This document shows, piece after piece, positions 43,765-49,250 of a stretch of DNA of 64,000 nucleotides (position 1 is its first letter; each line of letters begins with the position of its first letter). The position numbers were made by a program, and so were the translations under genes. The stretch is from Rhizobiales bacterium NRL2 (GTDB taxonomy: Bacteria > Pseudomonadota > Alphaproteobacteria > Minwuiales > Minwuiaceae). The stretch spans positions 4,145,031 to 4,209,030 of the forward strand of contig CP016093.1 in assembly GCA_001664005.1 (NCBI GenBank). Reading direction: 5' to 3'. The notes beneath the pieces are model-generated. The model worked only from the letters and a program-made list of their open reading frames with translations. It searched no databases and had not been told where the DNA came from.

Positions 43765-44631
43765 TCACCCCGCCCACTCCTCGATCAGGGGCTTCCAGGC
43801 CAGCGCGTCTTCGGGGCCGCGGAGAGCTGATTTCAGTCCCGCCATGGCGGAGACCGGCACCGTGACCCGTCCCACGCCGAGACGGACCAGCCCGTCCAGT
43901 TCCTTCGGGTCTTCCGGCATGGAGACGGTGATCTCCACCGAGGCCGGATCGCGGCCCGACTCCTCCGCCGTCTTCCGCGCCAGGTCGATCAGGTCGATTG
44001 GGGCGCCGCGGGCGGGGAAGAAACCGTCGCCCAGCCGGCCCGCTCGCCGCGCCGCCGCCTTCGAATGGCCGCCGACGACGATCGGCACGTGCCGCTTCGG
44101 CGGCCTGGGCTCGCAGTAGAGCGGATCGAAGCGGATGTGTTCGCCATGAAACTCGACGGGGCTGTCGGCCCAGAGCCGGCGCAGCGCCCGGATCGCTTCG
44201 TCGGTGACCGGTCCCCGCGCCTCGAAGGGCGCATCCAGGGCGCGGAATTCCTCCGGCATCCAGCCGACGCCGACGCCCAGGACGATCCGCCCGCCGGCCA
44301 TGTGGTCGAGGGTCGCCACCTGCTTGGCGACATGCACCGGCTTGTGCTGCGGCAGTATCAGGATGCCGGTCGCAAGCTTGATCCGGCTGGTGCGGGCGGC
44401 GACATATGCCATCCAGATCAGCGGGTCGGGCAGGTCGATGTCTTCGGTCCCGCCGGCCATGCGGCCGCCTTCGGCATAGGGATAGTTGGGCTGGTAGCCT
44501 TTCGGCACGACCGTGTGTTCGACGGTCCAGAGGCTCTCGAACCCCGCCTCCTCGGCCGCCTCGGCCAGTTCAACGGCGCGGACCGGGTCCACATAGGGCC
44601 CTGTATTGCAGTATCTCAGTCCGAACTTCAT
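43765..44631 (-). CDS. Luciferase-like (LLM) flavin monooxygenase, copy A
   Basis: This 288-residue TIM-barrel protein of the bacterial luciferase family has AVELAEAAEEAGFESLWTVEH, RIKLATGILILPQHKP, GRIVLGVGVGWMPEEF and VPIVVGGHSKAAARRAGR. These are typical of the probable-F420/FMN LLM group (TIGR03619-like). Such enzymes use reduced FMN or F420. It lies 22 bases from a close paralogue of equal length on the same strand, clearly a tandem duplication. Substrate is unknown. Confidence 0.88.
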   Translation of the reverse strand: MKFGLRYCNTGPYVDPVRAVELAEAAEEAGFESLWTVEHTVVPKGYQPNYPYAEGGRMAGGTEDIDLPDPLIWMAYVAARTSRIKLATGILILPQHKPVHVAKQVATLDHMAGGRIVLGVGVGWMPEEFRALDAPFEARGPVTDEAIRALRRLWADSPVEFHGEHIRFDPLYCEPRPPKRHVPIVVGGHSKAAARRAGRLGDGFFPARGAPIDLIDLARKTAEESGRDPASVEITVSMPEDPKELDGLVRLGVGRVTVPVSAMAGLKSALRGPEDALAWKPLIEEWAG

Positions 44632-44653
44632 GTCGCTGCTCCCTTGCCCGGTG

Positions 44654-45520
44654 TCAGGCCGCCCAGTCTTCCAGAAGGCCCTTCCATGACAGAACCTCTT
44701 CGGGACTCGAGACCGCCGTCCGCATGCCGGTGACCGCCGAGACCGGCACCGTCACCCGATCGACGCCCATCTTCCGGTAGTCGGAGAGCTCGGCCCGATC
44801 ATCGGGCATCGAGGCCGTGATCTCGATGTCTGCCGGATCGCGTCCCGCTTCCTCGGCCGCTTGCCGGGCGATCTCGAACAGGTCCGCCGGCGCCCCGCGC
44901 GCGGGGAAATAGCCGTCGCCCAGCCGCCCGGCGCGGCGCGCGGCTGCTTTGGAGTGGCCGCCGACGATGATCGGAATGTGCCCGCCCGCCGGACGCGGCT
45001 CGCAATAGAGCGGCGGGAAATCGACATGCGCGCCGTGGAACTCGGCCGGGCTGTCGGCCCAGAGCCGCCGCAGGGCCTGGATCGCCTCGTCGGCGAACCG
45101 GCCCCGGTGCTCGAACGACGCGCCCAGCGCCTGGAATTCCTCCGGCATCCAGCCGACGCCGACGCCCAGCATGAAGCGCCCACCGGCCAGCCGGTGCAGG
45201 GTGGCGGCCTGCTTGGCCACGTGCAGCGGCTTGTGTTGCGGCAGGATCAGGATGCCGGTCGCGACATTGATGCGGCTCGTGCGCGCGGCGACGAAGCTCA
45301 GCCAGACAATCGGGTCGGGCATGTCGACATCCTCGACGCCGCCGGCCATCTTGCCGCCTTCCACCTGCGGCGCATTGGGCGCATAGCCCCTGGGCACGAC
45401 GGTGTGCTCGATCGCCCACAGGCTCTCGAAGCCCGCTTCCTCCGCCGCCTCGGCCAGCTCGATCGCCGGCCCCGGTTCGACGAACGCGCCCGTGTTGCAG
45501 AATCTCAGTCCGAATTTCAT
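44654..45520 (-). CDS. Luciferase-like (LLM) flavin monooxygenase, copy B
   Basis: This is a 288-residue paralogue of the adjacent downstream protein, sharing almost all motifs: MKFGLRFCNTG, AIELAEAAEEAGFESLW, ATGILILPQHKPLHVAKQ, LGVGVGWMPEEFQAL and VGGHSKAAARRAGRLGDGYF. By eye roughly two thirds of residues are identical. Differences cluster in the regions after GY.PN and in the helix after SMPDDRAE, which may change substrate or partner. It is the first gene of the pair. Confidence 0.88.
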   Translation of the reverse strand: MKFGLRFCNTGAFVEPGPAIELAEAAEEAGFESLWAIEHTVVPRGYAPNAPQVEGGKMAGGVEDVDMPDPIVWLSFVAARTSRINVATGILILPQHKPLHVAKQAATLHRLAGGRFMLGVGVGWMPEEFQALGASFEHRGRFADEAIQALRRLWADSPAEFHGAHVDFPPLYCEPRPAGGHIPIIVGGHSKAAARRAGRLGDGYFPARGAPADLFEIARQAAEEAGRDPADIEITASMPDDRAELSDYRKMGVDRVTVPVSAVTGMRTAVSSPEEVLSWKGLLEDWAA

Positions 45521-45589: not shown

Positions 45590-46066
45590 TCAGACGGTAC
45601 CCGACTTCCGCCAGATCAGGTGATCGAGGGAGATCGGCCCCGCGCCGCGCACGAAGATGTAGACGAGGCTCAGCATCCAGAAATAGTGCTCCCACTGGAA
45701 ATAGGCCGGGTTCGATGCGCCGAGCACGAACTGGATGACCAGCGCCATGCCGAGCAATGGCAGGGCCGCGAGTCGGGTCATGAAGCCCAGCACCAGCAGA
45801 ACCGGCATCGCCAGTTCGAAGAAGGTGGCGAAATACGCCGCAATCTCCGGCGGCAGCACCGGCACGGCGTATTCGTACTGGAACAGGAAGACCGTGTTCT
45901 CGAAGTCGTTGAGCTTGAGCCAGCCGGACTGGAAGAAGATGCGCGCCATGATGAGCCGGAAGGCGAGATCCACCAGCGGGCCGCCCACCCGCTCGACCGG
46001 GCCGAAGATGCCCGCATAGAGGCCGGCCAGGCCTTGACCGCTCCGAGGCGTGTCCATCGTCGTCAT
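45590..46066 (-). CDS. DoxX-family membrane protein of the bufferin/gig locus
   Basis: This 158-residue protein has four predicted membrane helices. DoxX features are seen in LAFRLIMARIFFQSGWLKL, AAYFATFFELAMPVLLVLGF and PLLGMALVIQFVL. DoxX proteins are quinone-linked or redox membrane proteins of mostly unclear function. A DoxX gene (gigT) is the last gene of the gold-induced gigPABT operon of Cupriavidus metallidurans. Here it is also last, overlapping the DUF2063 gene by ATGA. Its role in the metal-stress system is unknown. Confidence 0.88.
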   Translation of the reverse strand: MTTMDTPRSGQGLAGLYAGIFGPVERVGGPLVDLAFRLIMARIFFQSGWLKLNDFENTVFLFQYEYAVPVLPPEIAAYFATFFELAMPVLLVLGFMTRLAALPLLGMALVIQFVLGASNPAYFQWEHYFWMLSLVYIFVRGAGPISLDHLIWRKSGTV

Positions 46067-46839
46067 CTCGATTCTCCTTCGTCGTCATGGCCGCCGCGGA
46101 CGAAGAGTCCGCCGGCCAGATGGCGCGCCAGCGCGCCCTGCAGATCGAAGCCCGGATCGGCCTGCTGACAGCGCGCGGCGGCCTCGCCCAGCGTGCAGCC
46201 CTCGGCCAGCGCTGCGAGGAAGGCGTACTCGGCCGGATGCAATGGCAGGCAGATCACCTCAGCCTCCGGCCGCGCGACCAGAGCCGCCTCCGGCCGGGGC
46301 CGCACCGCCGCCGGGTCGGCGGCTGTTTCCGGGCTCATCCGGATCGCATGCACCGGCCAGTCCGAAGCGATCAGCGCCGCCGAGGGATGCAGCCCAAGAC
46401 GCAGCGCCATCAGATCTTCCGGCGAGAGCCCGGCAAGCTCGGAAGGGCCGACCGGCGTCGCCTCGGACGCGCCATAGGCCGCATTCACCGCCCATTCGAG
46501 GCGGGCCACATCGGCGAGGAACGGCCATCGCTGCAAGGGCTCCGAGAGGGCGACGAATTCCGCCAGCTCCGCGCCGTAGTCCAGCAGATGGTTCGCTCGG
46601 GGCGGCGCGTGCCGCACGAACGCGGCCGACAGCCGGCCGAACAGATCCTCGCCAATGATGGCGACAATGGCGGGGAAGGTATTGGCCAGAACCTCGCGGA
46701 GCGAGGCGAAGGTGTTGTTGCGGTAGACCTCGAAGCGGTCAGCCTGCCGGCCGTCATCGGCGAGCGCGCCCAGTATCGGACCCGGCTCGCCGGCGACGCT
46801 TTCGGCGAAGCGCCGCTGCAGCTCGGCGAGGCCGCTCAC
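46063..46839 (-). CDS. bufC: DUF2063 partner protein of the MNIO enzyme (BufC/HvfC/GigB type)
   Basis: This 258-residue protein opens with the DUF2063 pattern LAELQRRFAESVAGE and DRFEVYRNNTFASLREVLANTFPA, followed by FVRHAPPRANHLLDYGAELAEF and LARLEWAVNAAYGA-like segments (ARLEWAVNAAYGA here). The C-terminal part has LHPAEYAFLAALAEGCTLGEAA. In related systems this protein brings the precursor peptide to the MNIO enzyme. A GTG start at 46839 overlaps the bufB stop (GTGA), and its own stop overlaps the DoxX start. No better ATG exists upstream. Confidence 0.9.
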   Translation of the reverse strand: MSGLAELQRRFAESVAGEPGPILGALADDGRQADRFEVYRNNTFASLREVLANTFPAIVAIIGEDLFGRLSAAFVRHAPPRANHLLDYGAELAEFVALSEPLQRWPFLADVARLEWAVNAAYGASEATPVGPSELAGLSPEDLMALRLGLHPSAALIASDWPVHAIRMSPETAADPAAVRPRPEAALVARPEAEVICLPLHPAEYAFLAALAEGCTLGEAAARCQQADPGFDLQGALARHLAGGLFVRGGHDDEGESR

Positions 46840-47750
46840 GCCGTCGCCCGGCGCGGTCCCGCCAGCGCGTCCATGCGCCGCTGGGCTTCCGCCGTCTCCG
46901 CCAGGATGACCTGGAGATCGGGAATGCAGGTGTCCCATTCGATCAGGGTCGGCACCCCTCCGAGCCGGTCCAGAGCACGCTCGTAGAGCGTCCAGACGTC
47001 GTCGCGGACGCGGCTGCCGTGATCGTCGATCAGCAGCGTGCCGCCCGGCGTCTCGCGCTCGGCATGGCCGGCAAGGTGGATCTCGCCCACCGCCTCGAAC
47101 GGCATGCGGTCGAGATAGTCATTGGCGTCGAAACCCAGGTTCCGCGCACTGACATGGATGTTGTTGACGTCGAGAAGCAGGCCGCAGCCGGCGCGGCGCA
47201 CGGTCTCGGCCACGAAGTCGGCATGGTCCATCTCGGCGCCGGCGAACTCCAGATACATGGACGGATTCTCCACCATCACCCCGCGGCCAAGCGCGTCCTG
47301 GAAGATGGCGATATTGCGCACCAGGATGTCCAGGGCCTCCTCGGTGCAGGGCAGCGGCAGCAGATCGTTCAGGCTGGCCCCGCCCGCGGCCTTCGGGGCC
47401 CGCACCCAGGCGATATGGTCGGAGATGGCGGCGGGACGGAACCGGTCGGCCAGAGCGCGGATGCGCTTCAGATGATCCCTGTCGGGTTCGTCGACGGAGC
47501 CGAGCGAGAGGCCGACCCCGTGCAGGCTGAGTTCGAAGCGCTCGCGCACGGCCTCGAGCTGGCGCAGGCGCGGACCGCCCGGGTACATGTAGTTCTCGGT
47601 GTGGACCTCGACCCAGTCGACGGCGGGCGGCCGGTCGATGACCTGCAGCACATGAGGATGACGCAGGCCGAACCCGGCGGTCGGCGGCAGGCTGGGTGTG
47701 GAATGGTTCACGACGGACGGCAGCCGTTCCGGCAGGGCACAGAGGGACAC
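46836..47750 (-). CDS. bufB: MNIO-family (DUF692) RiPP-modifying enzyme (BufB/HvfB/GigA type)
   Basis: This TIM-barrel protein of about 304 residues is of the multinuclear non-haem iron oxidase family. Candidate iron ligands are spread in order: ELSLHGVGLSLG, AISDHIAW, MVENPSMYLE, LLLDVNNIHVSARN, EIHLAGHAE, LIDDHGSRV and LIEWDT. Family enzymes convert cysteines of small precursor peptides into oxazolone/thioamide or thiooxazole groups that bind copper. The start is uncertain: the GTG at 47750 lies inside a hairpin, and a second GTG precedes NHSTPSLPP. It follows the bufA-type precursor by 34 bases and is coupled to bufC. Confidence 0.92.
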   Translation of the reverse strand: MSLCALPERLPSVVNHSTPSLPPTAGFGLRHPHVLQVIDRPPAVDWVEVHTENYMYPGGPRLRQLEAVRERFELSLHGVGLSLGSVDEPDRDHLKRIRALADRFRPAAISDHIAWVRAPKAAGGASLNDLLPLPCTEEALDILVRNIAIFQDALGRGVMVENPSMYLEFAGAEMDHADFVAETVRRAGCGLLLDVNNIHVSARNLGFDANDYLDRMPFEAVGEIHLAGHAERETPGGTLLIDDHGSRVRDDVWTLYERALDRLGGVPTLIEWDTCIPDLQVILAETAEAQRRMDALAGPRRATA

Positions 47751-47768
47751 CGGATGATCCGGCGTCCC
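47744..47768 (-). promoter_or_regulatory. Hairpin between precursor and MNIO genes, covering the GTG start
   Basis: GGGACACCGGAT (47744-47755) and ATCCGGCGTCCC (47757-47768) pair along 12 positions with one G-U in the RNA. The stem begins 16 bases after the precursor stop and includes the GTG at 47750. It could stabilise the precursor message and hold back bufB translation, giving more peptide than enzyme. This role is inferred. Confidence 0.6.
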
Positions 47769-47784
47769 CTGTCCCGGCTGGAAA

Positions 47785-48078
47785 TCAGCCCTTCATCTTC
47801 TCGTTGACGCCGTCGAAGGCCTGCTCCTGGCCGCCCATCTCCTCGCACTCGGTCTTGGTGGCGAGTTTCCACTCGCCGCCGGAGTAGTCGACGGTGGACT
47901 GACCGGCGCAGGAATGGGTGCCGGCCTTGTTGGCGCAGTCGTTCTGGCCGGCCTTGGCGATGCCGTAGCACTTGACCTTGTCGGCGGCGACCGCCTCGAC
48001 CGGGCCGAGGGTGGCGGCCATGCCGACCGCACCGGCGAGGGCGGCGGCGACGGAAAGGGACTTGAAGGTGGCGTTCAT
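47785..48078 (-). CDS. bufA: DUF2282 precursor peptide, bufferin type (copy 1)
   Basis: This 97-residue exported precursor has a signal peptide (residues 1-32) ending in AEAVAA-like AVAAD. The mature part of about 65 residues has four cysteines at 37, 48, 57 and 78 in the frames [31 protein letters not shown] and TECEEMGG. This is the DUF2282 pattern of BufA/GigP. In characterised bufferins, internal cysteines are modified by the MNIO enzyme and the peptide then binds copper in the periplasm. CAGAGGAG precedes the ATG. It lies directly before bufB. It is a paralogue of the gene at 48948-49250. Confidence 0.92.
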
Positions 48079-48238
48079 CAGGATTCTCCTCTGTGTTTCA
48101 TTGACCCGCGGGGCGGTCAGTGTTGCCAGCGGCCGGGTTCCCCGCAACCCCGTCCGCCAAGACCGCTCCGGTTAAAGCCGGAACGACCGTGTTCGAAACG
48201 ATGCCATCACAGCATTGCAGAAGCCGTGCATGGCGTGA

Positions 48239-48766
48239 TCACTCGGTGACAGGCGCCTTTGCGCCGTCCAGTTCCGGCACCGCTCCGTCATTGGCCGGAC
48301 GATCCTCGATGCCGGACCAGTTGCCTTCGGCGGCGGTCAGGTTGCCGCCGATGTCGGCTTCCCAGAAGCCGACCACCGCGCGGGTGACGTTGAGATAGAG
48401 CTTGCCGTCGACGATGCGCCACAGATGCGGATTTCCCGGCGCCTTGCCGCCCTTGGCCACGCCGAAGGCGCAATGGCCGTCATAGGCGGGCGCGTATTTC
48501 GCCGGATCCGCCAGGAAGGCGTCCCGGTTCGCGGCGGTCGAAAAGGCCCAGGTCGCGCCGTTGTACTCGGCGGTGAAGTTGGCCCGTCCGGGCACGGCCG
48601 GCGGCTGGCGTTCGCCCACTGGCGCCTGCGCCAGACCGCGATAGGCGACGGGATCGTAGCCGCTCAGCGCGAAGCCGCTGCCGTCGACATACTGCTCGCC
48701 CGCCTGGACGCCGCCCGAAAGGATCAGGATGACCGCAGCCGCAAGCATCGCAGCGCCTCGCATCAT
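48239..48766 (-). CDS. Exported YHS-domain protein within the bufferin locus
   Basis: This 175-residue protein has a signal peptide (MMRGAAMLAAAVILILSGGV, cleavage after QA). The mature part has the YHS pattern: YVDGSGFALSGYDPVAYRGL, then TWAFSTAANRDAFLADPAKYAPAYDGHC is seen as WAFSTAANRDAFLADP and YAPAYDGHCAFGVA, followed by GKLYLNVTRAVVGFWEADI. YHS domains occur in copper- and heavy-metal-handling proteins, and GHCA holds the single cysteine. It lies between two bufferin precursor genes on the same strand, so a shared metal role is likely but not shown. GGGAGG precedes the start. Confidence 0.87.
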   Translation of the reverse strand: MMRGAAMLAAAVILILSGGVQAGEQYVDGSGFALSGYDPVAYRGLAQAPVGERQPPAVPGRANFTAEYNGATWAFSTAANRDAFLADPAKYAPAYDGHCAFGVAKGGKAPGNPHLWRIVDGKLYLNVTRAVVGFWEADIGGNLTAAEGNWSGIEDRPANDGAVPELDGAKAPVTE

Positions 48767-48905
48767 CCGGTCGGCCTCCCTGTCTGGTTGACTTCTTTCA
48801 GGCCGCTGTCCGGCGGCCCGCTGAGATGGAAGATAAGACCGCAACCTGCCCACGCGCCCTACACGAGTTGTTGAGAGATCGCGTGATCGGGCGCCGGAAG
48901 CGAAA

Positions 48906-48938
48906 GGGCGCGGCGAAGGACGAACCGCCGCCGCGCCC
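48906..48938 (-). terminator. Hairpin after the second bufferin precursor gene
   Basis: GGGCGCGGCG (48906-48915) and CGCCGCGCCC (48929-48938) form a perfect 10-bp stem with a 13-base loop, 9 bases after the stop of the precursor gene. On the minus strand only TTT follows, so it may partly terminate or protect the precursor message. Confidence 0.5.
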
Positions 48939-48947
48939 CCGGGACGG

Positions 48948-49250
48948 TCAGCCGTCCTTCATCATCTTCGCCTTCTCGTTCATGCCCTCGAAGGCGGCCT
49001 GCTTGCCGCCCATCTCCATGCACTTCCCGGCGTCGTCGACCATCTTCCAGTCCTGGCCGCTGTAGTCGGCCGTGGAGTGGCCCTTGCAGCTGTGGTTGCC
49101 GGCCGCGCAGTCGTTCTCGCCGGCCTTCGCGACGCCGAAGCACTTGACGCCGTCAGCGGCCAGGGCCGGGGCGGCCGTCATTGCGGCGGCCATGCCGACA
49201 GCGCCGGCGAGAGCGGTGGCGACGGTGAGGGATTTCAGGGTGGTCTTCAT
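48948..49250 (-). CDS. DUF2282 precursor peptide, bufferin type (copy 2)
   Basis: This 100-residue exported precursor has a signal peptide [20 protein letters not shown] and onward to ALAA (residue 32). The mature part has four cysteines at 37, 48, 55 and 77 ([20 protein letters not shown], then GKCMEMGG). It shares with copy 1 the frame KC-aromatic-G-AKAG-NDC, HSC-G-ST-DYSG and EMGG, but the C2-C3 spacing is two residues shorter and the C-terminus is extended by MMKDG. It is the first gene of the locus and is followed by a hairpin. It has no MNIO gene directly beside it, so it presumably uses BufB/BufC in trans. Confidence 0.92.

Follow-up and report, generated by a model that had tools for sequence, protein, structure and literature searches.

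Bufferins, a large class that was described only recently, are small modified peptides that bind copper and trap its excess in the periplasm. In the systems characterized so far, an MNIO/DUF2063 enzyme pair converts the central cysteines of the precursor to thiooxazoles, and the exported peptide binds copper (PMC12452194, PMC13097082). Bufferins have also been described with a Cys1-Cys4 disulfide, and tandem bufferin precursors are already known in general (PMC12452194). Here, we analyze a bufferin operon on the minus strand of a 64,000-nucleotide stretch (hereafter, the window) of the complete 4.70-Mb genome of Rhizobiales bacterium NRL2, a member of Minwuia (contig CP016093.1, positions 4,145,031 to 4,209,030), in which a gene for an exported YHS-domain protein lies between two DUF2282 precursor genes. 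It resembles the Buf1 operon of Caulobacter (bufferin 1; PMC12452194) in its core genes, their order, the four-cysteine precursor with what looks, by eye, like a Sec-type signal peptide, and an MNIO enzyme of BufB level; it differs in the upstream YHS gene, in the second precursor, and in that no NrsF anti-sigma gene was found in the window's family (no PF06532 match in any of nine family genomes). What is new here is the recurrent YHS companion, which the searchable bufferin papers do not contain, whereas the core is an ordinary Buf1 operon and the second precursor is lineage specific. The GIG operon of Cupriavidus metallidurans and Legionella pneumophila, judged by its reported gene order, is said to have the same four-gene core, from which the window again differs by the YHS gene and the second precursor.

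Gene content and family identity were read directly from open reading frame coordinates and from matches to Pfam and NCBIfam profiles. Along the minus strand, the genes follow one another in this order:

48948..49250, minus strand: upstream bufferin precursor (DUF2282, Buf1 type); PF10048, 64.4 bits (cut-off 22.4)
48239..48766, minus strand: exported YHS-domain protein; PF04945, 34.6 bits (cut-off 30.3), and NF041384 YHS_seleno_dom, 120.2 bits (cut-off 70)
48079..48238, minus strand: gap of 160 bp, as measured, between the YHS gene and the downstream precursor
47785..48078, minus strand: downstream (ancestral) bufferin precursor (DUF2282, Buf1 type); PF10048, 73.9 bits (cut-off 22.4)
46836..47750, minus strand: MNIO maturase, BufB type; PF05114, 326.4 bits (cut-off 25), and NF050167 MNIO_BufB, 356 bits (cut-off 310)
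46063..46938, minus strand: DUF2063 partner protein, BufC-like; PF09836, 72.8 bits (cut-off 27.2)
45590..46066, minus strand: DoxX membrane protein, in the gigT position; PF07681, 67.2 bits (cut-off 23.6)

An earlier note on this DNA had listed the six genes with this order and strand, had given coordinates for the two precursors and the whole locus, and had recognized a bufferin/gig-type locus. All six are present where the note places them, and the identification holds, since the core families score above their cut-offs and the MNIO protein reaches the BufB equivalog level. These clear family assignments make the locus a bufferin operon of Buf1 type. The MNIO enzyme, whose start codon is uncertain, has 3bww and MbnB as relatives in the PDB. 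The DUF2063 protein, whose true start may lie further in than the listed ATG, matched nothing in a PDB sequence search and scored 62.6 bits against the HvfC equivalog NF050145, below the cut-off of 142; the DoxX protein also fell below the cut-off of the HvfX equivalog model.

The case for the YHS protein as a part of this system is carried by its recurrence. Among 120 DUF2282 loci taken from a sample of 385 alphaproteobacterial genomes, 74 have the DUF2282-MNIO-DUF2063-DoxX core without YHS. Of about 114 loci outside Minwuia, 10, distributed over six other families, have a codirectional YHS gene as the immediate upstream neighbor of DUF2282, against a chance expectation of 0.008 (P of about 2e-28, with kinship ignored and with a rounded mean YHS gene number and a rounded genome size). 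YHS is the commonest recurrent family among the codirectional upstream reading frames, several of the other clusters having the look of shadow frames. Four further YHS-DUF2282 loci, in three genomes and one family outside the class, were found in a phylum-wide sample. Culturable bacteria that carry YHS-DUF2282 in its plain form include Oceanibacterium hippocampi and Pelagibius marinus. The pairing thus recurs over lineages far beyond chance, which bears out the tie between YHS and bufferin loci drawn in the earlier note; the alternative that the placement is unique to this genome by chance did not materialize. We conclude that YHS beside the bufferin operon is probably a real working partner.

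Published work would have been poorly placed to notice it. The published survey of MNIO clusters admitted an unrelated gene only when no more than 10 bp separated it from a gene of the cluster (PMC12452194), and the gaps between YHS and DUF2282, as estimated from start codons, run from 13 to 482 bp, which puts YHS outside that survey. YHS is not mentioned in PMC12452194 or PMC13097082, and we found no paper joining YHS with bufferin, MNIO, or DUF2282 in a search of openly accessible main texts.

Within Minwuia, DUF2282 is present in six of seven genomes, and all six carry YHS-DUF2282-MNIO-DUF2063-DoxX with the YHS ortholog directly upstream of DUF2282. The upstream precursor is limited, within the genus, to the window and its sister species (G007), whose operon proteins are 93 to 99% identical to those of the window, except DUF2063 (89%). 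Since YHS is found in all six genomes and the upstream precursor in only two, YHS is ancestral in the genus and the upstream precursor is an addition. The picture of a YHS gene inserted between precursor copies, as the earlier note had it, is therefore reversed: the precursor is the added part. The full DUF2282-YHS-DUF2282-MNIO order does recur in the sister species but not in the remaining Minwuia genomes, which lack the upstream precursor.

The pairing of YHS with bufferin genes has more than one origin. Bufferin-linked YHS proteins belong to a lineage with a DGHCA motif (25 rows) and to a separate set with GGFCA, GGWCA, or GGYCA (7 rows). An MNIO tree built by FastTree, with support values that are local only, places the Minwuia enzymes in a supported clade of 39 rows. 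No other member of that clade has YHS, and the remaining YHS-linked enzymes are found in other parts of the tree. Eight changes in YHS linkage are needed over the tree, and its starred branches force at least three. In the DUF2282 tree, precursors adjoining the same YHS lineage split into two distant clades. Because the YHS proteins come from two lineages or more, and the MNIO enzymes from separate ones, the pairing arose repeatedly. Two further loci, L094 (4507-5755) and L264 (4602-6268), consist of YHS-DUF2282-DoxX without MNIO or DUF2063, and their genomes have a complete operon elsewhere (L124 and L263), which suggests that the L094 and L264 peptides are matured in trans. That YHS and DoxX are kept without the enzyme ties them to the peptide more than to MNIO.

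The YHS protein of the window belongs to the NF041384 "YHS (seleno)protein" subfamily, which it matches over the whole mature protein; it differs from its close relatives, mostly stand-alone genes, in being linked to a bufferin operon. An export signal can be seen by eye. Only one cysteine is conserved, in the DGHCA motif: Cys99 is invariant in 36 relatives, and there is no second invariant cysteine. We considered the histidine preceding it as a bufferin-specific ligand and rejected it, as it also occurs in stand-alone relatives and is absent from other bufferin-linked lineages. A sequence search of the PDB with the YHS protein matched nothing.

Copper-transporting ATPases are another setting in which YHS domains are found. 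By analogy with the characterized relatives, the MNIO/DUF2063 pair would act in the cytoplasm and convert the central cysteine pair of each DUF2282 precursor to thiooxazoles; the modified peptides would leave via Sec and take up copper once in the periplasm. There, we hypothesize, the exported YHS protein may act with the bufferin peptide, most likely as a thiol-based copper-handling or relay partner that could use its single conserved cysteine to load, unload, or reduce the bound metal. The second precursor would be a lineage-specific expansion that raises the dose or widens the range while using the same enzyme pair. Taken as a whole, this reading of a Buf1 operon with a periplasmic copper-handling YHS partner and an expanded precursor has, in our estimate, an even chance of being right. 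The further proposal that periplasmic YHS proteins are dedicated bufferin partners, recruited repeatedly, that hand copper to the thiooxazole peptide or receive it from there is more tentative, and we would put it forward only as one possibility among several. If YHS does pass copper in this way, bufferins would be more than a sink and would belong to a metal relay. A small exported partner that recurs beside the precursor is a concrete candidate for loading, unloading, or maintaining bufferins. The YHS companion is the valuable part of the locus, and the YHS (seleno)protein family gains an operon context that no searchable paper provides.

Several observations weigh against this copper-handling partnership. 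About nine in ten bufferin loci lack YHS. Conversely, among the 80 closest relatives of the window-type YHS in named genomes, 62 (from Rhodobacterales and Thalassospira) are solitary, no bufferin gene lying closer than 8 kb, which implies that YHS also has a bufferin-independent role; 16 lie in YHS-DUF2282-MNIO-DUF2063-DoxX, a count that includes some of the same Minwuia genomes, and one is divergently oriented. The motif before the cysteine differs among the bufferin-linked lineages (DGHCA versus GGF/GGW/GGYCA), so the sequences show no common metal site beyond the cysteine itself. The structure model of the YHS protein is of modest confidence (mean predicted local distance difference test score, pLDDT, of 66), with a moderately confident core, and its comparison with the PDB gave no significant match, only short, weak matches to the toluene monooxygenase family. 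Finally, the 160-bp gap between YHS and DUF2282 has room for a separate promoter.

A few single records also touch the distribution of YHS. In L175, an uncultured Roseovarius metagenome-assembled genome, a divergent YHS gene adjoins a complete bufferin operon, another geometry of the same pairing. The YHS proteins of L159 and L222, titled Mesoflavibacter and Nocardioides marinus, are nested among alphaproteobacterial YHS proteins, and these records may be mislabeled or contaminated.

The main rival to a copper-handling partner is that YHS acts in the periplasm as a thiol redox protein, one that carries no copper itself but maintains the proper state of the bufferin cysteines, for instance by forming the Cys1-Cys4 disulfide or by protecting the peptide. 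Its single invariant cysteine, with no second one among the 36 relatives, would suit such a role, as would the selenoprotein forms recorded for the family (PMC9312934) and reflected in its NCBIfam name, which fit a reactive thiol or selenol; the disulfide described for bufferins (PMC12452194) also speaks for it. On the other hand, a single cysteine without CxxC is unusual for disulfide catalysis, and no selenocysteine form of a bufferin-linked YHS protein was present among the loci examined. We regard this explanation as somewhat unlikely, though worth keeping in view.

Less plausible again is that YHS, induced by copper or stress, is a periplasmic member of the same regulon that uses the bufferin promoter for convenience and makes no physical contact with the peptide. 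The idea arises because most YHS relatives stand alone, and upstream sites in Minwuia fit co-regulation. Indeed, a palindrome, CACGCAATCGCGTG, adjoining GTAACC is perfect in four other Minwuia genomes (L011, L012, L013, and L014) while its flanks diverge; palindrome and box lie about 120 bp upstream of the start of the YHS domain, whereas the interval from YHS to DUF2282 lacks them. In those four genomes, this position, which also counts in favor of the main reading, is consistent with an operon that begins with YHS. Within the window, the palindrome finds only 4-mismatch matches, no better than in shuffled sequence, and with the site degenerate, control may differ there. Against a mere sharing of promoters stands the repetition of the pairing in separate lineages, always directly upstream and codirectional, and its retention even without MNIO. 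Sigma-F-like control through GTAACC-N16-CG was considered and rejected: of the six Minwuia genomes that carry the locus, three have this motif ahead of YHS, the window not among them, and NrsF was not found in the nine family genomes.

A third alternative concerns the precursors: that the two are specialized for different metals through their Cys2-Cys3 spacing. The cysteine pattern is C-x10-C-x6-C-x21-C in the upstream precursor and C-x10-C-x8-C-x20-C in the downstream one, so that the spacings of 6 and 8 given in the earlier note are right. The upstream copy has diverged, sharing about 60% identity with its downstream counterpart, and comparison with the sister-species copy gives a ratio of nonsynonymous to synonymous substitution rates (dN/dS) of 0.075; this purifying selection marks it as a real, maintained gene and would suit a distinct function. 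Among 128 DUF2282 proteins, however, Cys2-Cys3 gaps of 6, 7, and 8 are all common (33, 65, and 30 proteins), so the difference is not the unusual feature it was taken for, nor does it support different metal preferences. Moreover, tandem precursors occur elsewhere without YHS. We therefore consider metal specialization improbable. In the same 128 proteins, the Cys1-Cys2 gap is always 10 residues and the Cys3-Cys4 gap is nearly always 20; the gap of 21 found in the upstream precursor is less common, with 5 cases among the 128 that include this precursor and its sister copy.

That YHS is simply a chance neighbor with no link to the bufferin operon, an idea to which the many bufferin loci without YHS lend some color, is extremely improbable given 10 observed loci against 0.008 expected in the class sample, the loci outside the class, and the conservation throughout the genus.

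Both precursors show, by eye, a basic start, a hydrophobic stretch, and an AxA-type cleavage site, as in a Sec-type signal peptide. They match the BufA2 model NF050166 weakly (34.2 and 32 bits, under the cut-off of 60), but their four-cysteine pattern is that of Buf1 and not of Buf2 bufferins. The downstream precursor is conserved in the six Minwuia genomes at 82 to 97% identity. In the DUF2282 domain tree, the upstream precursor groups with the Minwuia DUF2282 proteins in a well-supported clade of 14 rows; support for its exact sister is weak, and the tree does not settle whether it originated by local duplication. As MNIO is a single copy in the genome, both precursors depend on it if both are modified, and on that proviso the earlier view that they share one enzyme pair stands. 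In having more than one DUF2282 gene per MNIO, the locus is like the tandem-precursor clusters (PMC12452194), from which it differs by the YHS gene between its two precursor genes. Two nearby DUF2282 genes, without YHS and in differing layouts, also occur at L268, L269, and L270. In the sister species (L015; G007:C61:4904-5005), a weak third DUF2282 match of 24.1 bits lies inside a 780-residue open frame and may be a fusion or a chance match.

Beyond DoxX lie genes for luciferase-like monooxygenases. None was found in L011 and one copy is present in each of the relatives L012 to L014, while the window, at 43765-45520, and the sister species have two, the window's paralogs being about 70% identical.

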